Source of the DNA: Candidatus Fermentibacterota bacterium
Lineage (GTDB): Bacteria > JAFGKV01
Direction: 5' to 3'
DNA: 34,772 bases
Assembly: GCA_016928395.1 (NCBI GenBank)
Contig: JAFGKV010000245.1
Coordinates: 1 to 34,772, forward strand
Shown: positions 1,012-34,243 of the stretch, piece after piece
Layout of the letters: each line of letters starts with the position of its first letter
Numbering within the stretch: the stretch's first letter is position 1
Program-made: the position numbers and the translations under genes
Notes under the pieces: model-generated
What the model was told of the DNA's origin: nothing
What the model saw: the letters and a program-made list of their open reading frames with translations, nothing else
Database searches by the model: none

Positions 1012-4000
1012 CTATGGGGATCGGTCGAAGACGGTGCGAGCATCCATGAGGACGGCGCCCTCCGGGACCCCTGGCGCTGAGGCGGCGGGGGGATACCCCG
1101 ATGGCACATAGCCCTCCGCGCCAATGATGGTCGCGCACCACTCCCGCGCCATGAGCGAATAGCCCAACCCATTTGGGTGGATCCCATCTAGCGACAGTAC
1201 ATTGAAGAGCCGGTTTCGGAACTGGTTGGGCGGGAGAGGCGGGCCCATGGCCTGGGCCGTCTCGTACAGCACCGTGTAGTGATCGGCGAGAGGGATCGAC
1301 TCAGCCTGGGCGTATGCCCCGATGGCCTGGTTCAGCGCGATGACCCGGCTGTTGGCCGCGGGATCAACCCAGTTCTCATAGCCGCACTCTTCCGGAGGGA
1401 TCCGGGGCGGCACCGTGCCGAGGATGACGATCATGTTGCGGGCTCTGGCTTCCGAGACCATGGCCGCCAGGTTGGCCACGGTCTCAGAGGGGCTGATTGC
1501 GTCCTTGGCGTCAATGGTGCCAAAGAGCAGCAGTAGATAGCCCGCATTCGCACCCTCCAGCAGTGGTGCTATCTCTTCCAGGCCCATGGCGCTGGATCCA
1601 GCGGGAACGTACTCGTAGTCAACTGCCACCGTGGTGAGGAGAAACTGCGTCAAGGCCGACTCGAGCTCCCCCACATAGCCCTCGCTCATCCAGATCCAGA
1701 TGGTGGTGCCGTTGCCTGAAGGTATCCCCTGAGCTCCCGCGGTGATGCTGTCGCCAAAGCCTAGCAGTCGGTGGGGGTCTCGAGATCCGATGTCCGGAAG
1801 GCGGAACGTAGCGACCGAAGACCACGGCCCCCACAACAGCCCGTCGAACGCCCGGGCGCGCCAGTAGCGCGTTCCTCCGCTGAGGTTCATCTCCGGTGCT
1901 ACTATCCAGAGTACCGTGCCCGCGACCTCCGCCAGCGGCGGACTTTGCGCGACCCGCTGGGCTAGCAGCGCGTCGGCATAGACCTCCACGCTGTAGAGCA
2001 GTTCATCCCCGTTGGGATCGACGGCGCCAGTCATGGTCAGAGGAGGCTTCCCCACCGTGACGGGGGTCCCCCCATCCGGCTGCAGCGCGTTGGGTGCGGT
2101 GGGGACAGCATCTCGTACGACGTGCCGATCCTCTCGGGCCGTCCACCCCGCCCTGTCCGTCGCCATTACCGTGATGGTAGTCCACCCTTGGGGCAGACTC
2201 ACCACCCCGTTGAACGCTCCCGCCCCGTCGACGCTTACCGGTGAACCCTGGATGGTCACATTGGAGCCTATCTCCGTAGTACCCATCACCATCACGCTGC
2301 TGTTCTCGGTAATCAGGCTGTCCGGCGGGCCCGTAAGTGATATGAACGGCGGCATCGTGTCCAGAGAGAGGGGCAGCCGGATGAGTGTGGTGTTTCCTGG
2401 CCCATCCCGCGCCGCCACCACCAGCGTATCGGGCCCTTCAGCCAGAAACGCCACGGCCATGAAGGACATGCCTTCCACGCTGGCCTCGACCCCGTCTACG
2501 GTTACTGCGGCTCCGGGTTCCGTTTCTCCGGAAACCATGACCGGATTCGCGGAGAACAGCTCTCCTGGTTCTGGCGCCGTGATCGTCAGGGCCGGGGCAA
2601 TCCTATCCATGATGAACACATGCGGCGTTCCAGGATTGCTGGCGTGACCGGCGCTATCAACCGCAGTTCCGTGGACCACCACAGCACCGTCGACATCCGG
2701 TGCACCAATGGTCATCGCCCAGGCCCCCGATGCGTCAGTAAGGGCCTGCCCCATCTCCTCTTCCCCGGAATATACAGTGACCGTCGCCCCGGGCTCGGCT
2801 GCACCCGCAACCGGGATCAGCGACACTGCCAGGACTGCGCTGTCCGGAGGCTGGAGAATGACGGGAGATGGAGGTGGGGTCAGATCCACCGAGATCCCGA
2901 CCGAATCACCCCGCACCCACCCCTGGCCGGGCGCCGAGGCCCCGCGCACGCTGATCGTGTGCGCCCCATCAGGCCTGGGCGTGGGCATCGTTACCCCAAA
3001 CAGGTCGCCCGTCACGAATCCCTCCGCAGCATTCCCGTCGATCAGGATCTCCACCCACGATCCGCTTTGCCCGCCGCCCGAGACCATGAGTGTCTCCTCG
3101 ATGACCAGCGCACCCTCCAGAGGTTCGTTTAGACACGGTGCCGCTGGCGCCGCGGCATCGATCACGACCGAGCGCTCAGAAGACTCCGCGCCGGTGTTCC
3201 CTGCGCCGTCGGTGGCCCGCGCGCTCAGCCGGTAGATGCCGTCGCCCGGCAGAACCAGCCCCGCCGAGAATGCCCCTGCGCTATCTGCCGTCAGTGCCAC
3301 ACGCCACTCCCCGTCGACCGCCACCTCCACCTGCGCATCTGCCTCCGTGGCCCCCTCCACCGTGATCTCCGGGTGCCGGTACAACTCGTTCTGCCCGGGC
3401 CGGATTATCACCGGCGCCGACGGTGCCGTCCGGTCAACCCACAGGCGAATGGCGTCCTCCGCAACGTTTCCTTCGGTATGAAGCGACACGATCCCTACTA
3501 TGTGAGGCCCCTCATCCACCAAAGCAGCCGGCCCAAGGGAGAAGGCTCCGCCGGAGGGGAAGGCCCGATGCCCCGTGTCACCCCCGTCCACGAACAATGC
3601 AAGGGAGTCGGTTGCTGCGGCGCGCCCCTGCACCAGCACCTCGCGGGCGTTTACCACGGTATCGGCGGCCGGTGACTCAACCGTCTCCACCATGGGCCTC
3701 TGACCGCCGCCCAGCATGACCGTGATGCTCTCGCTCTCGGCTGTATAGCCTCCCCACTCAGTTACTCCCCGAACCCACAGTTGCACCCACCCGCTTCCCG
3801 ATGGGTCCAAGGTTGGCAGAATGAACCCGCCATCACGCACCGGCACCATGGCACTCAACGCCCCATCTCTGTAGATTTCCACTTCAGTTACACCCAACGG
3901 CGCCCGCCCTGCCACCGGCACGGCACCCGCCGGTATTGCCACACCGTGCACCGGAAACAGCACTACAGGCGTGGCAAGATCCTCATAGCTCATGGTCAGC

Positions 4001-4323
4001 ACCACCGGCGCGCTGACCCGCGACGTATCCTGCACCATTCTCGCCCAGATCACCCGGCCTCCCTGGCCTCCCAGGGGCACATCGAGCGCCTCGAACTCCC
4101 CTGCCTCAGTGCTGTGTGCCAGCACGGGACTCGCTTCGCTGTCCACGAACACCTCAAGCGCCTGGTCAGGCTCCGCATTTCCACGCACCGTTATCTTCAG
4201 ACGACTCGAGACGCTCCCAGAGCGTGGCGACGTGATGACCGGTACGGTGCGCGCCGGCGGCGTTACTTCCTCGCCACACCCGGCCCACAACAGAGGCAGC
4301 ACACACAGGACTATTCGTTTCAT
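1012..4323 (-). CDS. Lipoprotein with about eight Ig-like repeats, an FN3-like domain and a C-terminal SGNH hydrolase domain
   Basis: This 1103-residue protein begins with a lipoprotein signal (MKRIV, hydrophobic core, lipobox WAGC with Cys16). The chosen ATG has a GGAGA site 7 bases upstream; an in-frame upstream ATG at 4365 would spoil the signal peptide. Residues about 28-745 form roughly eight Ig-like repeats of 80-95 residues, often starting PVI..P..G and containing V.V.G.a....V.V.VDG and AtDgAGN motifs. An FN3-like segment follows (about 746-850). Residues 852-1075 form an SGNH/GDSL hydrolase domain, with block I GFGDSITAG (Ser859), a block II Gly in PAGSSAMG, and block V DGIHPNGLGY (Asp1046, His1049). 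Block III reads FGTIDA: the usual Asn is Ile937, so the oxyanion-hole Asn is missing. The protein is probably anchored at the cell surface or in the periplasm. Substrate unknown; carbohydrate-ester or lipid hydrolysis is an inference. Confidence 0.85.
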   Translation of the reverse strand: MKRIVLCVLPLLWAGCGEEVTPPARTVPVITSPRSGSVSSRLKITVRGNAEPDQALEVFVDSEASPVLAHSTEAGEFEALDVPLGGQGGRVIWARMVQDTSRVSAPVVLTMSYEDLATPVVLFPVHGVAIPAGAVPVAGRAPLGVTEVEIYRDGALSAMVPVRDGGFILPTLDPSGSGWVQLWVRGVTEWGGYTAESESITVMLGGGQRPMVETVESPAADTVVNAREVLVQGRAAATDSLALFVDGGDTGHRAFPSGGAFSLGPAALVDEGPHIVGIVSLHTEGNVAEDAIRLWVDRTAPSAPVIIRPGQNELYRHPEITVEGATEADAQVEVAVDGEWRVALTADSAGAFSAGLVLPGDGIYRLSARATDGAGNTGAESSERSVVIDAAAPAAPCLNEPLEGALVIEETLMVSGGGQSGSWVEILIDGNAAEGFVTGDLFGVTMPTPRPDGAHTISVRGASAPGQGWVRGDSVGISVDLTPPPSPVILQPPDSAVLAVSLIPVAGAAEPGATVTVYSGEEEMGQALTDASGAWAMTIGAPDVDGAVVVHGTAVDSAGHASNPGTPHVFIMDRIAPALTITAPEPGELFSANPVMVSGETEPGAAVTVDGVEASVEGMSFMAVAFLAEGPDTLVVAARDGPGNTTLIRLPLSLDTMPPFISLTGPPDSLITENSSVMVMGTTEIGSNVTIQGSPVSVDGAGAFNGVVSLPQGWTTITVMATDRAGWTAREDRHVVRDAVPTAPNALQPDGGTPVTVGKPPLTMTGAVDPNGDELLYSVEVYADALLAQRVAQSPPLAEVAGTVLWIVAPEMNLSGGTRYWRARAFDGLLWGPWSSVATFRLPDIGSRDPHRLLGFGDSITAGAQGIPSGNGTTIWIWMSEGYVGELESALTQFLLTTVAVDYEYVPAGSSAMGLEEIAPLLEGANAGYLLLLFGTIDAKDAISPSETVANLAAMVSEARARNMIVILGTVPPRIPPEECGYENWVDPAANSRVIALNQAIGAYAQAESIPLADHYTVLYETAQAMGPPLPPNQFRNRLFNVLSLDGIHPNGLGYSLMAREWCATIIGAEGYVPSGYPPAASAPGVPEGAVLMDARTVFDRSP

Positions 4324-4987
4324 CAGGTTCTCTCCAGGGATACGCGCGGTGTGACGATGCGACACTCGGTCTCCCCTCTGAAACCCCGCACTCTATCCGG
4401 CACGTTCCCGCAACCCGGTTACCCCGCCAGTGCTCCGTGCGCCTTCACCCTCACCGGAGTACATCAGCCCGGTCAGGTTTATGGCAGGCGCGGCCGTGCC
4501 GGCGGGGACGAAGATCTGATCCCACATCGCGATATCGCATGGCCTCCCGAAAGCTCAATGGGAGAAATTGGGGACACGCCCCACACTCAACCCAGACAGC
4601 CTCCCGGCCTCCTGGGCCCGCCACAGAGTTGTCTCGACTGCCGTCCATCGCCCGCCTGAACCGTGGGGGAGCGGCTCCATTCCTGGATCTTCTCCGCTCC
4701 GAGCATTACCTTCACCCCGAGGCAGTGATGGAGTCGACCGGATCGTTCGCACGCCTCTTTGGAGAGGGAGCCGCGCACCTGTCCGTGAGACACGCCACGA
4801 GCCACGGGTCGTCGGGGGAGGGCCGGATGGATCGGTCGGACTCGCCGGAGAGGCCGGATACGCCGGTGCCTGCTCCTTCCACCATAGTATGGCGTACAAC
4901 GGTCGCAGAGCATTGTTCAGGGGAGCACGCACTCGGCGAAGCTGAAGAACACTGAGGTTGAGCTTACCAGCTCGCGAGGTCGAACAG
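4324..4987. other. Divergent intergenic region
   Basis: This gap of about 660 bases lies between the divergently read Ig-lipoprotein and the secreted barrel-like protein, so both promoters should be here. Several open frames of 100-170 codons exist on both strands, but their arginine- and proline-rich translations overlap one another and resemble no family. I find no sigma-70 pair that I would defend. A REP-like hairpin sits at 4569-4583, and a 10-bp palindrome (GCGATATCGC) lies near 4538. Confidence 0.45.
4569..4583. repeat. Small REP-like hairpin
   Basis: TGGGG and CCCCA flank the 5-base loop ACACG, preceded by GAAAT. The string AATTGGGGACACGC resembles, from memory, short palindromic elements mobilised by REP-associated tyrosine transposases in other bacteria. 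No such transposase gene is present in the window and I see no second copy, so the assignment is weak. Confidence 0.25.
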
Positions 4988-10225: not shown

Positions 10226-12397
10226 CTACAGGTGGCGCTTCACCACCTCGACAACCTCGGGGTAGTCTATGCCCAGCATCTGCAAGGTTTCCAGTTTCGG
10301 AACGGCGTTTCTCGTCCAGCCACGGCGTTCGTACACGGCATCCATGAGCTTCTCGTACCTCCCCTCACGATACGTCCGAAGGGCAGTGATCTTGTCGGCG
10401 GTGCTCATACCCTCGGGCGCGATGCCGACTTCATCCCGAAGCTGCGTATCATACCGCTCAGCCCTTGACTCGTATTCCTCGACGGTCACCGGACCTGCCG
10501 CACGGTAGGGTTGGGCGTCGAATCTGCGCAGGCCCTTGCCGAGACGGATATTGAACACGCGCTGGAAATCGTAGGCACGCTTGGACTGAAGGATCACCTC
10601 CTCCTTAGTGATCGTCCTGCCGGTCATTGAATTGAACAGGCGAACATAGTTGTCCACATGTTCCGGCACTTTGGCCGCTTCCTTCGGAGGGTGCTTCTTC
10701 TTGTTGTCGATGGGCTCGATGTCGTTCCAGGGCAGTTTGCACAAGCCGTTGAGGCCGAACCAGGTTCGCCAGAGCGGGAAGTAATAGAGCGCCTCAGCCT
10801 TATCGTCGAACGACGGGATCTGCTTGTTCACCATGTCCATGAAAATGAGCCATGCCTCATCGTGCTGAGGCCCCTTGTTTGTAAGGGCAAAGCCTCCCTG
10901 CTGCGCCAGAGACTCCTTGGATACATACTGGGAGTACTCCAAACCCTTGTTCTCCATGCCGATGTCATCGAGGAACGCAGCGTCGGCGCCATAGTGCTCG
11001 ACGAAGTATTCCTTCATCTTATGCACGCCCATGCCCGCGATTCTGCCAAAGCCCTCGCCTCGGGACACCTGATGGAGGAGCTCTAGCGCGGCATCCGCGT
11101 TGCCGAACGCAAGCTTCAACCCTCCTGTCTGCTCCGTGGTGATGATGCCGCGTTCATAGCATTCCATGACAAAGGCGGTCAATGTGCCCCACGAGATCGT
11201 ATCGATACCGTAGGTGTCGCAGTAGAAGTTGAGTTCCAGTATGGCCCGGGGATCGAAAATGCCGCAGTTGGACCCCACACCCGCGGCAGTCTCATACTCC
11301 GGCCCGTCGACCCGCACCCTCTCGCCCTTGTACGGGCCCGTCGAAAGCTCGAACTCCTCAACGGTCTTGGCGCATGCCAAGGTGCAGCCATACCAGCACC
11401 CGTCGGGGATGCCTTGATGGAACCACTTTACCCACACATCGGAGGAGATCTTCTTCGCGTCGGGATGGTTGCCGTACTGGAAGTTGTTCACCGGAAGCAG
11501 ATCAAACGCGTTCATAACCTCGACGAGATGCGGCGTGCCCCGCATGCGCATGCGCTCCATGCTCGCATCGTTCTGGAAGATCTCCCGGTGCAGTGTGCGG
11601 CCTGTGTTCTGTATTTGCTCAAGATCGACCGGGTGGTTATCGTCGCCATGGACCTGGGGTGAGCGCACCACCAGTGCTTTGATGCGTTTGTTGCGCAGCA
11701 CGGTTCCGGTGCCCCCGCGACCGGCCTGCTTAATGCGGACGCCCTTTCGGCGTACGTCCCACAACGAGAAGTTCAGGCAGCCCACCAAGGCGTGATCCGC
11801 GCCGCTGCCGGCGCTGACCACCGAGACATTGCGTAGGTCCTTCTCGTCAGCCGCATACATGTGAGTCAGCACATCGGCTAGGCGATGGGTATCCGCCGGT
11901 TCCAGAGGCGCGCTCTCCAGGGTGACCAGCCCCGTCTGCCCGTCGATGACGATGATGACATCCTGGTCGGCCTTGCCCTGCAACTCGATGCCGTCAAATC
12001 CGGAGAACTTCAAGTATGGACCGAAGTAACCGCCCACATTTGAGTCGATGACCTGATCGGTGGTCGGAGAGATGGAAACAACCAGGGACTTGCCGGAACC
12101 GGGGTACTGGGTGATGCCACTCAGAGGCCCCGGGCTGATGACAACCTCGTTTTCCTCGGAGTCCCATCGCGTCGAGTCCTTGACCGCATGCCACAGCAGC
12201 CAGAGGCCGAATCCCCGGCCGCCGGTGAACTTGGCCTTCATGTCGTCCGTGACGGGCCTTTCTTCTATCGTGCGGGTTCCCACATTGACATAGAGGGTCT
12301 TGCCCGTGTAGCCCTTGTCTACCGGGGAGCGTTCGTAATGATGGGTTGCCAGAAGCCGGTGAGCGGCCTTCATCTCGGCAATCGTCTTTGTGCTCAT
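10226..12397 (-). CDS. Aldehyde:ferredoxin oxidoreductase family tungsten enzyme (AOR)
   Basis: This 723-residue cytoplasmic enzyme of the AOR family (AFOR_N, AFOR_C) is predicted to oxidise an aldehyde to a carboxylate, or reduce the acid, using ferredoxin and a tungsten or molybdenum bis-pterin centre. The N-terminal domain has the pterin-binding GGRGFGLWLLW and SPGPLSG segments. Cluster ligands read C334-x3-C338-x3-C342 (GCWYGCTLAC) plus Cys553 in NGLCKLPW. DGPEYET and YGIDTISWG are also family-typical. The ATG at 12397 has GGAGG 6 bases upstream; the in-frame extension to 12511 runs into the ferredoxin gene and is rejected. The protein is longer than the roughly 600-650 residues usual for characterised AORs. 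The first cluster spacing is CX3CX3C, where I expected CX2CX3C. It lies 37 bases after the polyferredoxin gene, its likely electron partner. Confidence 0.9.
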   Translation of the reverse strand: MSTKTIAEMKAAHRLLATHHYERSPVDKGYTGKTLYVNVGTRTIEERPVTDDMKAKFTGGRGFGLWLLWHAVKDSTRWDSEENEVVISPGPLSGITQYPGSGKSLVVSISPTTDQVIDSNVGGYFGPYLKFSGFDGIELQGKADQDVIIVIDGQTGLVTLESAPLEPADTHRLADVLTHMYAADEKDLRNVSVVSAGSGADHALVGCLNFSLWDVRRKGVRIKQAGRGGTGTVLRNKRIKALVVRSPQVHGDDNHPVDLEQIQNTGRTLHREIFQNDASMERMRMRGTPHLVEVMNAFDLLPVNNFQYGNHPDAKKISSDVWVKWFHQGIPDGCWYGCTLACAKTVEEFELSTGPYKGERVRVDGPEYETAAGVGSNCGIFDPRAILELNFYCDTYGIDTISWGTLTAFVMECYERGIITTEQTGGLKLAFGNADAALELLHQVSRGEGFGRIAGMGVHKMKEYFVEHYGADAAFLDDIGMENKGLEYSQYVSKESLAQQGGFALTNKGPQHDEAWLIFMDMVNKQIPSFDDKAEALYYFPLWRTWFGLNGLCKLPWNDIEPIDNKKKHPPKEAAKVPEHVDNYVRLFNSMTGRTITKEEVILQSKRAYDFQRVFNIRLGKGLRRFDAQPYRAAGPVTVEEYESRAERYDTQLRDEVGIAPEGMSTADKITALRTYREGRYEKLMDAVYERRGWTRNAVPKLETLQMLGIDYPEVVEVVKRHL

Positions 12398-12434
12398 GCT
12401 CTTCCTCCGAATCCTCGGCCAGGATGTCTTTGTC

Positions 12435-12893
12435 TTAGAAGTAGTTCTTGGCGAAGGTGTCGCCTGTTTCGCCGGCTTGGTTCTGTTCGAGATATGACAA
12501 CTCGAACTCACCGTCGACCAACTCTAATGCACCGGCCGGGCAGGCCTCGACACAGGCTCCGCATGCGATACACTTGAACGGCGCCAGGCGGGACGCGTGG
12601 GTGCGCATGGAACCCGTGGGGCAGTACTCAACGCATGCATAGCAGCCCACGCATAGGTTCTTGTTAATGACAACCGTTCCCGCCTTCGTGCGCGAAATGG
12701 CGGTCACTGGACAGATATCGATACAGACGCCGCACTGATTGCAGACATTGATGTCAACGGTTCCGTCATCAGCGTGCGTGACCAGAATGGACGACAGGGA
12801 GATATCGTCCGATTTCTGTGTCTTCTGAGCGCATGCACGCATGCACTCCTGGACGAACCTACACTTCTCGGGATGAGGCTTCACATACTTCAT
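12435..12893 (-). CDS. Polyferredoxin, electron-transfer partner of AOR
   Basis: This 152-residue iron-sulfur protein has three complete CX2CX2CX3CP motifs: Cys51/54/57/61, Cys81/84/87/91 and Cys108/111/114/118. Each can supply ligands for a [4Fe-4S] cluster. An N-terminal group (Cys11, Cys17, Cys21) could support another centre. The ATG at 12893 is chosen because GGAGG sits 7 bases upstream; the in-frame ATG at 12899 would be only 1 base from it. It directly precedes the AOR gene, an arrangement common for AOR enzymes with a dedicated ferredoxin-like subunit. It probably passes electrons between AOR and the cellular ferredoxin pool or a redox complex. Confidence 0.88.
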   Translation of the reverse strand: MKYVKPHPEKCRFVQECMRACAQKTQKSDDISLSSILVTHADDGTVDINVCNQCGVCIDICPVTAISRTKAGTVVINKNLCVGCYACVEYCPTGSMRTHASRLAPFKCIACGACVEACPAGALELVDGEFELSYLEQNQAGETGDTFAKNYF

Positions 12894-12979
12894 CGTCATG
12901 CCTCCAAGTGCGATGTGGTGGTAGTCAGGCACCGGCAGTCGAGGGTCAGCGCCGTGGCGCGGGCTTGCCGGGCAGTCTC

Positions 12980-25176: not shown

Positions 25177-25438
25177 GGGCGCCCACACACAATAGCAAAC
25201 GCAAGGTAGCGAGGCAGTCACGGCTGTCAAGCAGCGCGTGTGGTGCCCGAAGCCGCTCATCCTCCAAAGACTCAGGATGTGCCAAGAGCAGGCCTCAGCT
25301 GACCGTCTAGCCCACGCACCCCTTTGTCGTGCACGGTAGTGCCCAAGGGCATCACACGGACGAGGCCGCCATCCGCTCCGGAGGAAGGCACTCGGCTCGT
25401 GCCCGTGCAGGGGCCTAGCTCCGTGCCCACCCATGAAT

Positions 25439-25452
25439 GCGAGAATTCTCGC
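25439..25452. promoter_or_regulatory. Perfect 14-bp palindrome, possible operator
   Basis: GCGAGAATTCTCGC is its own reverse complement. It lies about 120 bases upstream of the candidate ATPase promoter and about 260 bases from the tRNA. Perfect palindromes of this size in a divergent gap often bind dimeric regulators, but no specific factor is recognised. Confidence 0.4.
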
Positions 25453-25556
25453 TTCCCCCTCCGCGCCGGTGCATCTCCTCGCTTCTGTCTCCTCACCTGG
25501 ATTCCCGCTGGAGTTCGTGGTGGCGTGGTGAGGCGTCACAGAGTGGTGTGGGGGTG

Positions 25557-25585
25557 TTGCCAAATGGAAGGTCCACTTGTATCTA
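25557..25585 (+). promoter_or_regulatory. Candidate sigma-70-type promoter of the V-ATPase operon
   Basis: TTGCCA (25557-25562; five of six consensus bases) is separated by 17 bases from TATCTA (25580-25585; a weak -10). It lies about 65 bases before the first ATPase gene. It is the best pair I can see in this gap, though not a strong one. Confidence 0.4.
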
Positions 25586-25639
25586 TGGCCGCTTACCGAT
25601 TCCCAGACAAACCCACGCATGCACTCACGCAGAGTATTC

Positions 25640-25644
25640 GGAGG
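25640..25644 (+). promoter_or_regulatory. Ribosome-binding site fixing a GTG start
   Basis: GGAGG ends 5 bases before the GTG at 25650 and sets the start of the first ATPase gene. No ATG lies in frame at a suitable place. Confidence 0.75.
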
Positions 25645-25649
25645 CACAT

Positions 25650-25976
25650 GTGCTCCAGCACGCCTTGGAGGCCATTCGCGAGGCGGAACGTCAGGCGACG
25701 GCGATTCTTGCTGACGCAGGGCGCCGAGCTGCCGAACTCCAGGAGGCTTGTTCCCGCGATCTGAAGACCATGGAAGAACGGTCGGCACAAGAGACGGCCG
25801 ACCGGCGCAAGTCCCTCATCGCCGATGCCGAGGCGCGCGGTGCAGCGGACACGCAGAGGATTGCTGCCGAGGCAGCCATGCGCAGCGATGAGCTTCGCGC
25901 AGCTGCCGAGGCCCGGATGGAGGCGGCTGTGGCAGCCGTCACGAAGAGACTGACTGATGGCGGTTCAGCAACTTAA
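25650..25976 (+). CDS. V/A-type ATPase peripheral-stalk subunit (G/H-like)
   Basis: This 108-residue protein is almost entirely alpha-helical coiled coil rich in Ala, Glu, Arg and Lys (AIREAERQATAILADAGRRAAE and similar). That is typical of the G/H (AhaH/NtpF-type) subunit, which pairs with subunit E to form the peripheral stalk. The GTG start at 25650 is set by a GGAGG 5 bases upstream, and the length matches the family. It is the first gene of the ATPase operon and overlaps the subunit I gene by 20 bases. Sequence identity in this family is low, so the call rests on composition, size and position. Confidence 0.8.
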   Translation: MLQHALEAIREAERQATAILADAGRRAAELQEACSRDLKTMEERSAQETADRRKSLIADAEARGAADTQRIAAEAAMRSDELRAAAEARMEAAVAAVTKRLTDGGSAT

Positions 25977-27966
25977 GCGTGTCTACGTAGTCGTCCACGC
26001 TCCGGCTCGTGATGGGGTGGTGGCGGCCCTGCAGGATGCGGCTTTGGTCCATCTTGAGCAATTGGACGAGGGGGAACGCGACCAGAGGGCCGAACCTCTG
26101 GAGGTGGACACCCGCGACTTGGACCGGCGTATGGGCGATTTGGATGCCGCACTAGACTACCTCGGCCGGTATGCGCCCTCGGAGTCTTCGAGGGCGGCCC
26201 CCGTGTCTCGCGACGAATTCCTCGACCTCTCTCGCGATTCCAGCGTTGATGCTACGCTGGCCGAGACTCGGAAAATCCAGGGCGAGCTTGCGGAGCTCGA
26301 TGTCCGGGAAACTCGGCTCAGAGCTGCCATAGGGCATGTGCAACCGTGGCGTGCTCTTCCGGTTCCTCTCGAGTGGCTCAGATCAACGCCCACGACGACG
26401 ATTCTGTGTGGTTCACTCCCGTCTCGATCCGTTGCGACTCTTCGGGCGGCCCTATCCGAGCAGGGTACGGCATGGATCATGGAGGAGGTCTCTGCTGAGA
26501 GCGGAAAGACCAATGTCGTGCTCGCGGATCTCGTCGACGATCCGCCTGACGCCGAGCGTCTGCTCCGGGAGGCAGGGTACCAGCCCATGCTGTTCCCGGC
26601 ATCCCGCGGCACCGTGGCCGAGGTGATCCAGAGCCTGCAGCGCGAGGGCGAGTCTCTGGCCAAAGAACGGGAGACGCTGAAGACCCGGGTGACTGCCCTG
26701 GCCCTGGAACGTGTGAAGCTCATGGCGGCATACGATGACGCGTGGATCCTGCGCCAGCGGCTCGAGGGGCTTCGGGCGGCATCAAAGACCCGGGAATCTG
26801 TGATCATCGCGGGGTGGGCCAAGGCGAACGACGTGGCGCGGATATCCGCACTGGTGGAACGGGAGGGCGATGCCGCGGTGCTGGCGCGGGATCCGCTGCC
26901 CGGCGAAGAGCCGCCCGTTGTCCTCCGCAACGCGCCCTTGGTTGCCCCGTGCCAGGCAGTCACGGGCTTGTACGGCATGCCCAAGTATCAAGAGATCGAT
27001 CCCACACCCCTGCTGGCGCCCTTCTTCGTGGCGTGCTTCGGCATCGCCGTCGGAGAGGCCGGCTACGGTATCATCCTGGCGGTGCTGTCCAAGCTGGCGA
27101 AACGATTCATGAAGCTGTCTGAAGGCAGCGCGCGCTTCATGGACCTAATGTTCTACTGCGGCATCGCGACCTTTGTGGCGGGCATGCTCATGGGAAGCTT
27201 CTTTGCCATCGACTTCGCGAGTCTGCCGCCATCGCTGGCTGGGCTGGCTACCCTCCACGATCGGTTGATTCTGCTTGATCCGCTGAAGCAACCCCTGCCG
27301 TTCCTGGGATTCGTATTGGCGCTGGGGTTTCTGCAGGTGTGGACAGGCGTGCTCATCGGTGGAGTGGTGCAGTGGCGCTCGGGCGACCGACTGCGGGCAG
27401 TGCTCTACAGCGGTGGGTGGATGGCTCTGCTGCCTCTCACGGCAGTGCTGCTTATCCGGCCCGTCGTGGCCGGGATTCCTCTTCGATACCCGTGGATGGC
27501 GGCGGCGGCATCTGTGTTCGTCGGCGCGGGGCTGGGCGCATCCTCCGTGGGCGGCCGAATCGGGTCAGGGCTCTTCGCCCTGTACGGCATTACCGGCTTC
27601 TTCGGCGATGTGTTGTCGTATTCACGGCTATTTGCCCTGGGGCTGGCAACCGGCGTCATGGCTAGCGTCATCAACATCCTCGCGGCCCAGGCGAAGAACA
27701 TCCCCGTGGTGGGCTGGGGCATCATGGCGCTGATCCTCGTGGTGGGTCACCCGGCAAATCTCGCCATCAATGCCTTGGGCGCCTTCGTCCACAGCGCCCG
27801 GCTTCAATTCGTTGAGTTCTTCACCAAGTTCTTTGAAGGAGGCGGGCGCCGGTTCGAACCCTTTGCCCGCAGGTTCCGCTACATACAGGTGGCCCATGGC
27901 AAGGATACGCCCGGAATGGTACGGCAACACCGCGAAGGCGGTAGCATTAGCGAAAGGAGCATTTGA
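25957..27966 (+). CDS. V/A-type ATPase subunit I (membrane a-subunit)
   Basis: This 669-residue protein has a cytoplasmic N-terminal half with coiled coils and a C-terminal membrane half with seven or eight helices. It forms the stator and ion half-channels next to the K-subunit ring. Recognisable segments are AVQQLKRVYVVV at the start, PKYQEIDPTPLLAPFFVACFGIAVGEAGYG, GDVLSYSRLFALGLATGVMA, and near the end ALGAFVHSARLQFVEFF followed by KFFEGGGR. The essential Arg region (SYSRLFALGLA) and His (AFVHSARL) are present. The stop overlaps the subunit K start by one base (TGATG). Confidence 0.93.
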   Translation: MAVQQLKRVYVVVHAPARDGVVAALQDAALVHLEQLDEGERDQRAEPLEVDTRDLDRRMGDLDAALDYLGRYAPSESSRAAPVSRDEFLDLSRDSSVDATLAETRKIQGELAELDVRETRLRAAIGHVQPWRALPVPLEWLRSTPTTTILCGSLPSRSVATLRAALSEQGTAWIMEEVSAESGKTNVVLADLVDDPPDAERLLREAGYQPMLFPASRGTVAEVIQSLQREGESLAKERETLKTRVTALALERVKLMAAYDDAWILRQRLEGLRAASKTRESVIIAGWAKANDVARISALVEREGDAAVLARDPLPGEEPPVVLRNAPLVAPCQAVTGLYGMPKYQEIDPTPLLAPFFVACFGIAVGEAGYGIILAVLSKLAKRFMKLSEGSARFMDLMFYCGIATFVAGMLMGSFFAIDFASLPPSLAGLATLHDRLILLDPLKQPLPFLGFVLALGFLQVWTGVLIGGVVQWRSGDRLRAVLYSGGWMALLPLTAVLLIRPVVAGIPLRYPWMAAAASVFVGAGLGASSVGGRIGSGLFALYGITGFFGDVLSYSRLFALGLATGVMASVINILAAQAKNIPVVGWGIMALILVVGHPANLAINALGAFVHSARLQFVEFFTKFFEGGGRRFEPFARRFRYIQVAHGKDTPGMVRQHREGGSISERSI

Positions 27967-28439
27967 TGGACGGGCTGTCACTCTCACTCCTGGGGGCAGC
28001 GATCGCAGTCATGCTGGCAGGGTTCGGGTCGGTGATCGGTGTCGCCCTCGCCGGCCAGGCTAGCACCGCGGTGATCGGCGAGGACCCGCAGAAGTTCGGC
28101 AAGGTGATCCTGCTCACAGCCCTCCCCGGGACACAGGGGATCTACGGCTTCGTGATAGGGTTTCTGGTTTTGCTCAAGCTCCAGATCATAGGCGGCACGC
28201 CCCCTCCGATCACCACCATCCAGGGCTGGTACATCCTCTTCTCATGTCTGCCCGTGGCCCTGGCCGGCTTCCTGAGTGCCGTGCACCAAGGCAAGGTGTG
28301 CGCCGCGGGTGTGCAGATGACAGCGAAGAGGGCCGAGGAATCGGGCAAGGCCATCATCCTTGGCGTGTTCGTCGAGACCTATGCAGTGCTCGGATTTCTC
28401 GCCAGCTTCCTGATGACCAGCGGAGTGACGTTCGGATAG
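27966..28439 (+). CDS. V-type ATPase subunit K (proteolipid rotor), Na+-type signature
   Basis: This 157-residue double-hairpin proteolipid has four membrane helices and forms the rotor ring. It closely follows Enterococcus hirae NtpK. The five residues that hold Na+ in that ring have counterparts here: Leu53, Thr56 and Gln57 (LPGTQG), Gln108 (HQGKV) and Glu137 (VETYAVLGF). Only the second hairpin carries the ion-binding carboxylate, as in NtpK. Na+ coupling is therefore predicted, not shown. The ATG at 27966 has AAAGGAG upstream; the TTG just before it is rejected. The gene is packed between subunits I and E. Confidence 0.93.
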   Translation: MDGLSLSLLGAAIAVMLAGFGSVIGVALAGQASTAVIGEDPQKFGKVILLTALPGTQGIYGFVIGFLVLLKLQIIGGTPPPITTIQGWYILFSCLPVALAGFLSAVHQGKVCAAGVQMTAKRAEESGKAIILGVFVETYAVLGFLASFLMTSGVTFG

Positions 28440-28445
28440 CCGTTC

Positions 28446-29048
28446 ATGGCACTGGAAGACATCACACGCCGGATCGTTTCTGCCGCGCAGCAGGAGGCTG
28501 ACGCCCTCCTGAGCCAGGCACAGCAGCGGGCGGACGACCTGAAGAGGGAGGCGGCTGAACGCCTCGCCCACGAGATCGTCTCAGCCGAGCAACGTGCGGT
28601 GGAAGAGGCAGCCGCGCGTCATGCCCGCCTGACCGCTACCGCGCAACTGGAGGGGCGCAAGCAGGAGTTGGCGGCCCGACGCGCCCTCGTCTCTTCCGCG
28701 GTGGATCAAGCCCTGGCGCGCCTCGCCAAGGCTGACGAGGAAACCTATGCCGCGTTCCTCCTGGGGATCCTCCTGCAAGCCCCATTCGAGGGCGAAGCGG
28801 ATATCCTGGTCTCCGCCAAGGATCGCGATCTCCTGCAACGCAGGCTTTCCCACTTCCAACGCGAGTTGGATCGGGCCGGACGAGGCCTCACGCTTCGGCC
28901 CTCACCTGAGACCCGTGAGATCGATGGCGGGTTCGTGTTGCGGCAGGGGCGCATCGAGTACAATGCGTCATTGGCGGCCATCAAACGATTCCGTGAGCAT
29001 GATCTGCGGGCTGCCGCCAATGAGGCACTCTTCGGAGAAGATGCGTGA
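28446..29048 (+). CDS. V-type ATPase subunit E
   Basis: This 200-residue peripheral-stalk subunit has an N-terminal helix rich in Ala, Glu and Arg (ITRRIVSAAQQEADALLSQA...). Its C-terminal globular domain carries ILVSAKDRDLL and IDGGFVLRQGRIEYNAS, a diagnostic subunit E motif. It pairs with the G/H-like subunit to brace the catalytic head. The end overlaps the GTG start of subunit C by 4 bases (GTGA). Confidence 0.9.
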   Translation: MALEDITRRIVSAAQQEADALLSQAQQRADDLKREAAERLAHEIVSAEQRAVEEAAARHARLTATAQLEGRKQELAARRALVSSAVDQALARLAKADEETYAAFLLGILLQAPFEGEADILVSAKDRDLLQRRLSHFQRELDRAGRGLTLRPSPETREIDGGFVLRQGRIEYNASLAAIKRFREHDLRAAANEALFGEDA

Positions 29049-30067
29049 CCCCTTCCTTGCTGTGGATTCCTCCCGATGATCTGCGCTATGCCCATGGCGT
29101 GTCCCTTGTGCGGGCCATGGAGTGGACCCTGCTCTCCCGCAAGACCCTGGATGCCATGGCCCGGGCCGACGACGCCGCCGAGGCCCTGGAGGAGTTGAGT
29201 GAAACGCACTACGCCAGCTTCATGACACCGGGGCAACACGTGGCCGATTTCGAGCTCATCCTGAGCCGCGCCCTGGAGAGTGCCTACCTTCTGTTCCGGC
29301 GACTTGTGCTCGACCCCGACCTTGAACAGGGCGCCTTGCGCCTCCATGACTTCCACAACTTGAAGGCGATGTTGAAAGCGAATCTCGAAGGCAGTGAGCC
29401 CGTGGGGATCGTTCCCTTTGGCCTGGTGGATGCCCGGTGCATCCGTGATGCAGTGGAGGGAAGAGACTACCAGGGGCTGCCTTTGGATCTCGCCGCTGTA
29501 GCGCGGCAGGCCTTAGGATCGTACCAGATCTCCCGCGATCCCAGGCTCTTGGAGGTCATCATCGATACCGCCGCCGTCGCAGCTCGCGTTTCATCCTTCG
29601 CAGGCCTGAACACACAGGTTCTGCCCGACTATGCGGTGCTCCTGGCCGATACCACCAATATCCGCACAGTGGTACGCATGGGCCGTTCGAACCAGGATCC
29701 TTCGTTGTTTGATCTGGCCTGCATACCAGGGGGGTCACTGCCGGTTGACTCGTTGCGACTCTCGCTCGGTAAGAGGGCAACTCTGGGGGAAGTCTACTCG
29801 ATGACGCCGTATGCCAAGGCCGTACGTGAGGGCTTGGCATATCTCCAGGAGAAGAACTCCTACGCAGTGCTGGATCGGGAGCTGGAGAATCTTCTTATTG
29901 GCACGCTCAGAGAGACGAGATTCGTGTTCTTCAGCCCTGCTCCCATTGTGGCGTTCCTCCTGGCCCGGGAACATGAGGTGCGCATGATCCGCCTCGTCAT
30001 GGTTGCCAAGATCAACCGAATCCCCGCCGAGCTTATCGCGGCGAGGCTACCGATGCTGTATGCCTGA
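29045..30067 (+). CDS. V-type ATPase subunit C (central-axis connector)
   Basis: This 340-residue mostly helical subunit links the rotor ring to the central shaft. It has the family segments YAHGVSLVRAMEWTLLSR near the start and DFHNLKAMLKANLEG at about 101-115. PYAKAVREGL lies further on, and near the end are FFSPAPIVAFLLAREHEVRMIRLVMVAKINRIP. The start is GTG at 29045, coupled to subunit E. Its end overlaps the subunit F gene by 8 bases. Confidence 0.9.
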   Translation: MTPSLLWIPPDDLRYAHGVSLVRAMEWTLLSRKTLDAMARADDAAEALEELSETHYASFMTPGQHVADFELILSRALESAYLLFRRLVLDPDLEQGALRLHDFHNLKAMLKANLEGSEPVGIVPFGLVDARCIRDAVEGRDYQGLPLDLAAVARQALGSYQISRDPRLLEVIIDTAAVAARVSSFAGLNTQVLPDYAVLLADTTNIRTVVRMGRSNQDPSLFDLACIPGGSLPVDSLRLSLGKRATLGEVYSMTPYAKAVREGLAYLQEKNSYAVLDRELENLLIGTLRETRFVFFSPAPIVAFLLAREHEVRMIRLVMVAKINRIPAELIAARLPMLYA

Positions 30068-30416
30068 CGGAATGGCGTTTCTGGGCAGCAGCGACAGCGT
30101 CAAAGGTTTCACGCCTTTGGGGGTCGCGCCCTACCCGGTCCATGACCGGGAGTCCGCCCTTCAGGCTCTTCGCGGCTGCGTGAGGGAGGGCTATGCCATC
30201 GTGTGTGTAACCGAGGAGATTGCCGAGCTTCTGGAGCCTGAGCTTAAGGCTTTGCGGTTCCAGCCCACTCCCGCTGTCTTGGTCGTACCCTCGATGACGG
30301 GTTCCACCGGCTTGGGACTCCGCAGACTGAAGACCCTCGTTGAGAAAGCGGTTGGCGCCGACATTCTCTCCCGGGAAGGCCCTGCGCAAGGCGCAGGCGA
30401 GGCTAAGAGGGACTAG
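30060..30416 (+). CDS. V-type ATPase subunit F
   Basis: This 118-residue small central-stalk subunit has the Rossmann-like pattern MAFLGSSDSVKGFTPLGV near the start, EGYAIVCVTEEIAELL in the middle, and ILVV..PS-like strands (AVLVVPSMTGSTGLGL). The ATG at 30060 is chosen because it overlaps the end of subunit C and removes a non-family leader. The stop is immediately followed by the subunit A start. Confidence 0.9.
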   Translation: MPDGMAFLGSSDSVKGFTPLGVAPYPVHDRESALQALRGCVREGYAIVCVTEEIAELLEPELKALRFQPTPAVLVVPSMTGSTGLGLRRLKTLVEKAVGADILSREGPAQGAGEAKRD

Positions 30417-32213
30417 ATGAAACAAGGTGTAGTCGAAAAGGTATCGGGCCCCTTGGTGGTCGCCCAGGGACTTCTGGACGCGAAGATGTATGACGTGGTG
30501 CTGGTCAGCGACCACCGCCTGGTGGGCGAGGTCATCGAGCTTCGGGGCGAGAAGGCCTCTATCCAGGTCTACGAGGAAACCGGCGGTCTTGGCCCCGGAG
30601 AGCCGGTGTACAGCACGGGGGCGCCGTTGTCGGTGGAACTGGGGCCGGGGTTGATCGAATCCATCTACGACGGCATCCAGCGCCCGCTGGATGCCATCCG
30701 GGCTGCCACGGGCGACCTGATTCACCGCGGTGTGTCGGCACCGGCCTTGAATCGGGAAAAGAAATGGGAGTTTGTGCCCACCGCAAAGATCGGAACCGAG
30801 GTGCACGGTGGCGACGTCTTGGGCACGGTGCAGGAAACCGACCTGGTGGCACAGAAGATCATGGTGCCTCCCGGTGTCGAAGGCACGCTGGCCGCCTTGG
30901 AACAGGGCTCCTTCACCGTCGAGGAGCCCATCGGGGCTGTGAAGACGGCGGACGGCAGTGAGCTGGCGCTTCTCCTCATGCATCGCTGGCCCGTACGCCG
31001 CAGCAGGCCCTATGTGCGCAAGATCTCGCCCTCGATGCCCTTGGTGACGGGCCAGCGGGTCATCGATGCGTTCTTTCCGTTGGGTAAGGGTGGCACCGGA
31101 TGTGTTCCCGGCCCGTTCGGCTCAGGCAAGACCGTGATTCAGCATCAGCTCGCCAAATGGGCTGACGCGGATATCATCGTCTATGTCGGCTGCGGCGAGC
31201 GGGGCAATGAGATGACCGACGTGCTCATGGAGTTCCCGGAGCTGGTGGATCCGAAGAGCGGCAAGCCCCTCATACGGCGGACCGTGCTCATCGCCAATAC
31301 CTCCAATATGCCCGTGGCGGCCCGGGAGGCCTCGGTGTATACGGGAATCACCATTGCCGAGTACTTCCGCGATATGGGCTACTCGGTGGCCGTCATGGCT
31401 GACTCCACCTCCCGTTGGGCCGAGGCTATGCGCGAGATGTCGGGCCGGCTCGAAGAAATGCCCGGCGAGGAAGGCTACCCCGCCTACCTCGGTACCAGGA
31501 TCGCGGAGTTTTATGAACGGGCCGGCCGGGTTATCTGTGCAGGCTCCGAGGGTCGCGAGGGAGCCCTCTCGGTCGTAGGCGCGGTGTCTCCTCCCGGGGG
31601 TGACCTGTCGGATCCGGTGGTGCAGGCGACACTGCGGGTCGTCAAGGTCTTCTGGAGTCTGGAGGACAAGCTGGCCTACAAACGGCACTTCCCCGCCATC
31701 AACTGGCTGACCAGCTACTCCCTTTACACGAGGAATCTCGACTCACACCTGCGTGAGACTCTTGGTGACGAATGGATCGCCATGCGCGATGCCGCGATTG
31801 CCTTGCTGCAGAAGGAAGCGGAACTCGAGGAGATCGCCAGGCTTGTGGGTGTCGAGTCGCTTTCGGCGGGTGACCGCCTGATTCTGGAGACCGCACGGTC
31901 CATCCGGGAAGACTTCCTCCACCAGAATGCATTCCACGAAGAGGATACCTACACCTCATTGGATAAGCAGAAGGCACTCCTCTCGCTCATCATGCATCTG
32001 GACGGGCGCATGAAAGAGGCTCTGGAAAGGAAGGTCGATCCGCTTGTCCTGTTCGCGGTCAAGGTGCGGGAGCGCATCGCCCGGGCTAAGTTCATGCCGG
32101 AGCGGGATCTGGGTGCCGTACTCGCCATCAAGGATGAGATCGATCAGGAAGTTGACGGGCTCATTGCTTCAGTGACCGCGGATATCCTCCCGACCACAGC
32201 GGAGAAGACATGA
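30417..32213 (+). CDS. V-type ATPase catalytic subunit A
   Basis: This 598-residue catalytic subunit hydrolyses or makes ATP in the peripheral head. It contains the N-terminal barrel ([13 protein letters not shown]), the non-homologous bulge region typical of V/A-type enzymes, and the P-loop GPFGSGKT at 232-239. Further on are [15 protein letters not shown] with the catalytic Glu, [14 protein letters not shown], and the C-terminal helical domain. The length is normal. It starts directly after subunit F, with GAGGGA as a likely ribosome-binding site, and overlaps subunit B by ATGA. Confidence 0.96.
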
Positions 32214-33589
32214 TCAAGGAGTACCTCACCACATCCGAAGTCGTTGGGCCCCTCATGCTCGTGGAGCAGGTACAGGGGGTGAAGTACGAAGAACTGGTCG
32301 AGATCGAGTTGCCCAGCGGCGAGATCCGCCGGGGCAAGGTGCTGGAAGTAGACCAGGACCGTGCTCTGATCCAACTGTTCGAGGGCTCCTGGGGGGTCGA
32401 CGTGCCCAATAGCCGGGTCCGCTTCCTGGGCCGTGGCATCGAGATCGGCGTGTCTCCCGACATCCTTGGGCGGGCCTTCGACGGGCAGGGTCGCCCCGTA
32501 GACGGCGGCCCCGAGCTGATCCCGGACGCCAGGCTTGACATCAATGGAAGCCCCATCAACCCCTGTGCCCGCGACTACCCGTCCGAGTTCATTCAGACCG
32601 GCTTCTCCTGCATCGATGGTCTGAACACGTTGGTTCGGGGGCAGAAACTGCCGATCTTCTCCGGCTCGGGACTTCCCCATCCCCAGATGGCTGCGCAGAT
32701 CGCACGCCAGGCCAAGGTGCTGGGCAAGACCGAGAGCTTCGCCGTGGTGTTCGCCGCCATGGGAATCACCTTCGAGGAGGCTGATTACTTCCTCTCCGAC
32801 TTCCGCCGTACCGGCGCCATTGAGCGGGCGGTGCTGTTCCTCAATCTGGCCAATGATCCCGCTATTGAGCGTATCTCCACTCCTCGCATGGCCCTTACGG
32901 TCGCGGAGTACCTAGCGTTTCAGTTAGACATGCATGTGCTGGTGATTCTGACCGACATGACCAACTACTGTGAGGCGCTGCGCGAGATAAGTGCGGCCCG
33001 CAAGGAGGTGCCGGGGCGCCGGGGTTACCCGGGCTATTTGTACACAGATCTTGCGACCATCTATGAGCGGGCCGGCAGGATCAAAGGCAAGAAGGGCTCA
33101 ATCACACAGATACCGGTACTTTCCATGCCGGAGGATGACAAGACGCACCCCATCGCCGATCTCACCGGCTATATCACCGAGGGTCAGATCATTATGTCGC
33201 GGCAGATGCACAAGCGAGGCATCTATCCTCCCGTAGACGTTATGCAGTCACTGTCGCGTTTAAAGGACAAGGGCATCGGTGACGGCAAGACCAGGGAAGA
33301 CCATTCGGATGGGTTCAACCAGCTCTTCGCGGCATATGCGCGAGGCAAGGAAGCCCACGAGCTGGCGGTTATCCTCGGCGAAGCGGCCTTGAGCGAACTG
33401 GACGGCGCGTATTTCCGCTTTTCTGATGAGTTTGAGGAGCGTTACATACAGCAGGGGACGGAGGAAGACCGGACCATCGTCGAGACTCTGGATCTGGGGT
33501 GGGAGTTGCTTCGCACGTTGCCGGCCAGTGAGATGAAGCGCGTACGCGAGCGATTTCTCAAGAAGTATTTCCTGCAGGAAGCCGAATAG
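32210..33589 (+). CDS. V-type ATPase non-catalytic subunit B
   Basis: This 459-residue regulatory partner of subunit A forms the alternating head. It lacks a classical P-loop and instead has [19 protein letters not shown], characteristic of B subunits. [45 protein letters not shown] is represented by its two hallmark parts, [14 protein letters not shown] and [31 protein letters not shown] lies near the C-terminus. It is translationally coupled to subunit A through the ATGA overlap at 32210. Confidence 0.96.
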
Positions 33590-33601
33590 GAGGCAGCCGC
33601 G

Positions 33602-34243
33602 GTGGCCAGGCTCGCGGTCAATGCAACCCGAATGGAGCTCTTGCGGCTGCGAAAGCGCGTTGCTTTGGCGCGCCGGGGGCACAAGCTCCTGAAAGACAAG
33701 CAAGATGAGCTCATGAGGCGGTTTCTGGAGCTGCTGGCACGTACCCAGGAGCTTCGGCGCCAGGTGGAGGACGGCTTGGCCCGGGCACACTGGAGTTTCT
33801 CCTATGCCTCCGCCACCATGTCGCCGGAGATCATGGATGTGGCGTTCCTTCTCTCCCCGGCCGAGCTCACCATCGAGACATCTACCGTGCCCGTCCTGAA
33901 CCTGCGGACACCACGGTTCGAGCTGAAGAGCGAAGGCTCGACCCATGGGTATGGATTCGCCTTCACCTCGGGGGCGCTGGACATCGCCTTGGAGCAGTAT
34001 CAGGCGATTCTTCCCGCCATGGTAGAGCTTGCCGAACGGGAGAAAGGTCTGGAGATGCTCTCCGAGCAGATCGAGAAGACGCGGCGCAGGGTCAATGCTC
34101 TGGAGTATGTGCTGATCCCTAATTTGGTGGAGACCATACGGTATATCACCCTCAGGCTGTCCGAGATGGAACGCGGAGACTTGACTCGCATCATGAAGGT
34201 CAAGTCGATGCTGGAGGCCGCGCGAAGCGCCCGAGATAGCTGA
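33602..34243 (+). CDS. V-type ATPase subunit D (central shaft)
   Basis: This 213-residue subunit forms a long antiparallel coiled coil that acts as the rotating shaft. The N-terminus LAVNATRMELLRLRKRVALA and the stretch GHKLLKDKQDELMRRFLEL are family hallmarks. The C-terminal helix carries RRRVNALEYVLIPNLVETIRYI in shorter conserved pieces (NALEYVLIP). The start is GTG at 33602 with AGGAGG about 8 bases upstream. The stop overlaps the next ATG by one base. Confidence 0.94.
   Translation: MARLAVNATRMELLRLRKRVALARRGHKLLKDKQDELMRRFLELLARTQELRRQVEDGLARAHWSFSYASATMSPEIMDVAFLLSPAELTIETSTVPVLNLRTPRFELKSEGSTHGYGFAFTSGALDIALEQYQAILPAMVELAEREKGLEMLSEQIEKTRRRVNALEYVLIPNLVETIRYITLRLSEMERGDLTRIMKVKSMLEAARSARDS

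Follow-up and report, generated by a model that had tools for sequence, protein, structure and literature searches.

The locus and its genes

The window, i.e., the whole stretch of 34,772 nucleotides that was analysed, contains a nine-gene V/A-ATPase operon at positions 25437-34243, in the order G/H, I, K, E, C, F, A, B, D. The genes are as follows:

25437..25976, + strand: peripheral-stalk subunit G/H, at the NtpF position (NCBIfam V-type subunit H, E=4e-4, residues 76-169 only)
25957..27966, + strand: subunit I (stator a), 669 aa (NCBIfam V-type subunit I, E=6e-99)
27966..28439, + strand: subunit K, the proteolipid rotor, a double hairpin with five predicted Na+ ligands (alignment, NCBIfam, AlphaFold2 model)
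28446..29048, + strand: subunit E, peripheral stalk (NCBIfam E=3e-14)
29045..30067, + strand: subunit C (NCBIfam E=3e-54)
30003..30416, + strand: subunit F, central rotor (NCBIfam E=7e-23, residues 25-122)
30417..32213, + strand: catalytic subunit A, with the Walker A motif GPFGSGKT (NCBIfam 872 bits, cut-off 470)
32210..33589, + strand: subunit B (NCBIfam 775 bits, cut-off 349)
33602..34243, + strand: subunit D, central rotor (NCBIfam 148 bits, cut-off 72)

Judged by its predicted genes, the operon is complete. Eight of the subunits (I, K, E, C, F, A, B, and D) are clear NCBIfam matches and G/H is a weak one; a Pfam search gave no match for the G/H ORF, whose true start probably lies downstream of 25437. 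The ORF of subunit F overlaps that of subunit C by 65 bases, and its start may therefore also be further downstream. In its C-terminal part, subunit I carries two arginine-containing segments, SYSRLFALG and HSARLQFVEFF (positions 554 and 612), which we take to be equivalent to the arginines of NtpI. On the 3' side of subunit D, an ORF with a DUF2147 domain runs off the end of the contig.

Elsewhere in the window, positions 10226-12932 (-) encode an aldehyde oxidoreductase of the AFOR family, which the earlier note took for a tungsten enzyme, adjoining a 4Fe-4S ferredoxin-like protein. The oxidoreductase has both AFOR domains by Pfam yet scores far under the NCBIfam AOR cut-off, so that, as far as profile matches can tell, it is a divergent member of the family. 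The class I hydro-lyase that the earlier note took for a fumarase could be either a fumarase or a tartrate dehydratase. Positions 1012-4365 (-) encode a protein of 1117 aa in which repeated Ig-like domains are combined with a GDSL lipase/hydrolase domain at the C-terminus.

The rotor subunit and its predicted ion-binding site

The K ORF, preceded immediately upstream of its ATG by a ribosome site of the AAAGGAG type, is translated into 157 aa that form four helices in the AlphaFold2 model. It scores 188 bits against the NCBIfam family of V-type ATP synthase subunit K (NF005124, curated cut-off 127), and its top match among all PDB sequences in a phmmer search is NtpK of Enterococcus hirae (2bl2, E=5.6e-32). 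The earlier note had proposed that five residues of K correspond to the Na+ ligands of NtpK, and in the phmmer alignment all five fall exactly on them: Leu53, Thr56, Gln57, Gln108, and Glu137 align to NtpK Leu61, Thr64, Gln65, Gln110, and Glu139. The offset in numbering is +8 in the ungapped first half and +2 in the second. The five NtpK residues are those published as its Na+ ligands (PMC2359735). In addition, Tyr60 of K is the counterpart of NtpK Tyr68, the tyrosine that stabilises the ion-binding glutamate. The identity of Leu53 is not diagnostic for Na+ because this residue contributes its main-chain carbonyl.

The structural model, built from an alignment of 49 sequences, has a mean pLDDT of 95.5 and superimposes on 2bl2 with a TM score of 0.90 and an rmsd of 1.0 Å (43% identity). 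The layout described before, a double hairpin with one carboxylate per subunit, is thus borne out: four helices are present in the model, no ligand other than Glu137 is a carboxylate, and the equivalent position of the first hairpin is occupied by Gln57.

The ligand set is the rule in this family

A search of genome contigs yielded 80 relatives, and 82 K subunits were aligned. The full set of five residues (LTQQE) is found in 80 of these 82. At positions 56 and 53, 81 sequences each have Thr and Leu, respectively, the exceptions being a single Ser and a single Met; Gln57, Gln108, Glu137, and Tyr60 are invariant (82/82). The invariance of Gln57 and Glu137 is slightly favoured by the search itself, which relied in part on patterns that covered these two residues; Thr56 and Gln108 were in no pattern. 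Within the sequences aligned here, the five-residue set is the rule in this bacterial family of K subunits. We thus rejected the complete set as a notable feature of this protein, since 80 of 82 homologues carry the same residues.

The nearest relatives, at 92% and 79-80% identity, carry the labels Candidatus Eisenbacteria and Candidatus Fermentibacteria, respectively. The K subunits of Candidatus Fermentibacteria/Sabulitectum, Bipolaricaulota, Spirochaetes, Planctomycetes, and Clostridia are approximately 45-61% identical to it and, save for two sequences, have the same five residues; they differ only by ordinary divergence in loops and termini.

Ion pumps in the same genome

The genome (4.79 Mb, 94% complete, 343 contigs) was searched for Na+ pumps such as Rnf, Nqr, and antiporters, and encodes several candidates: Rnf, an Nqr-like operon, an Mrp-linked complex, a membrane pyrophosphatase (mPPase), and two CPA-type antiporters. 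The Rnf operon, on contig C121, is complete and has the order rnfC-D-G-E-A-B. On contig C240 (L092:1497-14531), a module resembling Nuo B, C, D, and H precedes an Mrp set, which comprises large antiporter subunits and subunits of the MrpB, C, D, E, F, and G types. Upstream are sulfhydrogenase beta/gamma-like genes and an ORF of 550 aa without a family match. This gene content suggests an Mrp-linked oxidoreductase or hydrogenase. A canonical complex I was rejected, since proton-antiporter matches occurred only in this Mrp-linked cluster. An Na+ pump of the oxaloacetate decarboxylase type was also rejected, with zero matches to the beta subunit in the genome.

The mPPase on contig C93 has Glu6.53 and Ala12.46 (in DLYESY and NTTAATGKG), a pattern shared by Na+-PPases, Na+/H+-PPases, and one class of K+-dependent H+-PPases (PMC5150537). 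It is predicted to be K+-dependent and to belong to a class that includes Na+ pumps, which is no more than suggestive of Na+ pumping. Haem-copper and bd oxidases were not found in the 94%-complete assembly.

The genome also encodes an F-type ATP synthase, in an operon on contig C39 (L093:3968-10594). When its c subunit is aligned to the rotor of A. woodii, the positions of Gln32, Ser66, and Thr67 of Na+ c subunits are occupied by Met, Ala, and Leu; it is best read as a proton-type subunit. The earlier note had envisaged an anaerobic, sodium-based energy economy. The presence of likely sodium pumps and the absence of haem-copper and bd oxidases from the assembly agree with this view, but a purely sodium-based economy is too strong a claim and was rejected because the c subunit of the F-type ATP synthase does not have the Na+ ligands. 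The cell probably runs an Na+ and an H+ circuit, with the Mrp-type complex and the antiporters as the link between them, and its economy would be mixed.

An NQR-like operon without NqrA and its counterparts in sister genomes

The Nqr-like operon, on contig C28 (L090:1083-5113), consists of genes resembling NqrB (short), C, D, E, and F, and the products of its NqrB and NqrC genes have TGAT flavin-attachment motifs. NqrA is absent: the search of the genome gave zero matches to NQRA_N and a single match to RnfC_N, the RnfC of the Rnf operon. Upstream of the C28 operon are a rubrerythrin and a partial ORF that looks MoaD-like by eye. Contamination of the bin by this contig is unlikely, since its tetranucleotide profile correlates with that of the window at 0.988.

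Two sister genomes also have NQR-type operons (L108:129-5778 on G002:C227 and L106:3754-8150 on G001:C440), both with a subunit at the NqrA/RnfC position followed by B-C-D-E(-F); their NqrB proteins are approximately 37-41% identical to that of C28. Canonical NqrA no longer has the cysteines that bind the two 4Fe-4S clusters (PMC4014512). In both sister genomes, the RnfC-like subunit at the NqrA/RnfC position keeps two 4Fe-4S motifs (CxxCxxCxxxC), and the G002 operon also has a clear NqrF (538 bits, cut-off 295). These operons may be intermediates between Rnf and NQR.

Coupling ion and direction

K forms the rotor ring of a bacterial rotary ATPase of the V/A type, and from the ligand residues and the modelled fold, we think it likely that this enzyme is coupled to Na+ rather than H+. 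Each copy of K, a fused pair of hairpins, would bind one Na+ through Thr56, Gln57, Gln108, Glu137, and the backbone of Leu53, and as the ring turns past the arginines of subunit I, the passage of Na+ would be coupled to the turnover of ATP by A3B3. The enzyme would most likely share a sodium circuit with Rnf, the Nqr-like complex, the Mrp-linked complex, and the mPPase.

A ring that keeps its Na+ ligands by descent could nevertheless run on H+, or on both ions, in a natural habitat that is possibly low in sodium. Rotary ATPases of the Na+ type do transport H+ when Na+ is lacking, and H+ enzymes can still carry some of the Na+ ligands (PMC2359735); the proton-type F-ATPase in this genome also indicates that the cell probably uses H+. 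Yet Gln57 is invariant in all 82 K subunits and position 56 is always Thr or Ser, whereas in a published alignment the position of Gln57 is aliphatic in (predicted) H+ enzymes (PMC2359735), and several likely Na+ pumps are encoded in the genome. We regard this reading as improbable.

The direction in which the Na+-coupled enzyme works is harder to assign, since the proton-type F-ATPase leaves both its role and its direction ambiguous. Because this separate synthase is present, we favour a V/A-ATPase that is mainly a reversible, ATP-driven Na+ pump, although this is a guess and ATP synthesis is about as likely. The alternative differs in direction only, the coupling ion being the same: the V-type enzyme would mainly make ATP from the sodium gradient of Rnf and Nqr, and the F-type enzyme would hydrolyse ATP and pump protons. 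The Rnf operon is complete, and the E. hirae enzyme can make ATP from a sodium motive force, but cellular V-ATPases are generally ATP-driven ion pumps (PMC12018189), the F-type operon could well provide the synthase, and the sequence holds no feature that would fix the direction. ATP synthesis as the main task of the V-type enzyme is a serious contender, to which we give slightly less weight.

Implications

A paper of 2008 had already inferred Na+ specificity from this motif across the rotors of F- and V-type enzymes (PMC2359735). K is an ordinary rotor of an Na+-type V-ATPase from an uncultured lineage: it holds little surprise and leaves the known picture unchanged. Its interest lies in a sequence-level prediction of sodium energetics for such a lineage and in one genome encoding both Na+-type and H+-type rotary ATPases. 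The NQR-like operons bear on the origin of NQR from Rnf, and the operon without NqrA, together with the 4Fe-4S subunits of the sister genomes, may be worth more than the rotor itself. A search of the literature turned up nothing specific on an Na+ V-ATPase in Fermentibacteria or on NQR without NqrA. As a broader and rather speculative proposal, this anaerobe from a candidate phylum may split an Na+ circuit (V-ATPase, Rnf, Mrp-linked complex, mPPase) from an H+ circuit (F-ATP synthase), its NQR-like pump running without NqrA and the 4Fe-4S operons of the sister genomes being possible transitional forms between Rnf and NQR.

Comparison with known rotary ATPases

The closest known system is the Na+ V-ATPase of E. 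hirae. The nine subunit genes follow the order ntpFIKECGABD, which we assume to be that of E. hirae, although genes of the NtpHJ type are absent directly after subunit D, where the DUF2147 ORF is found instead. The K ring of E. hirae (2bl2) shares with K the five ligands, the stabilising tyrosine, the double hairpin with one carboxylate, and a near-identical fold; the two are 43% identical, and in K the loop between the hairpins is 6 residues longer. The NtpK-type enzyme is experimentally Na+-coupled and reversible; reconstituted E. hirae enzyme moves approximately 3.2 Na+ for each ATP and is able to make ATP from a sodium motive force (PMC12018189). The V/A-ATPase described here would work likewise.

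The H+-coupled rotor of the Thermus thermophilus V/A-ATPase (6qum and others) belongs to the same superfamily and also has Thr at the position of Thr56, but it is a single hairpin with Leu at the position of Gln57 and Phe at that of Tyr60. The residue equivalent to Gln57 is polar in Na+ enzymes and aliphatic in (predicted) H+ enzymes (Mulkidjanian et al. 2008, PMC2359735). The Leu of Thermus fits this rule, and the Gln57 of K is as expected for an Na+ enzyme.
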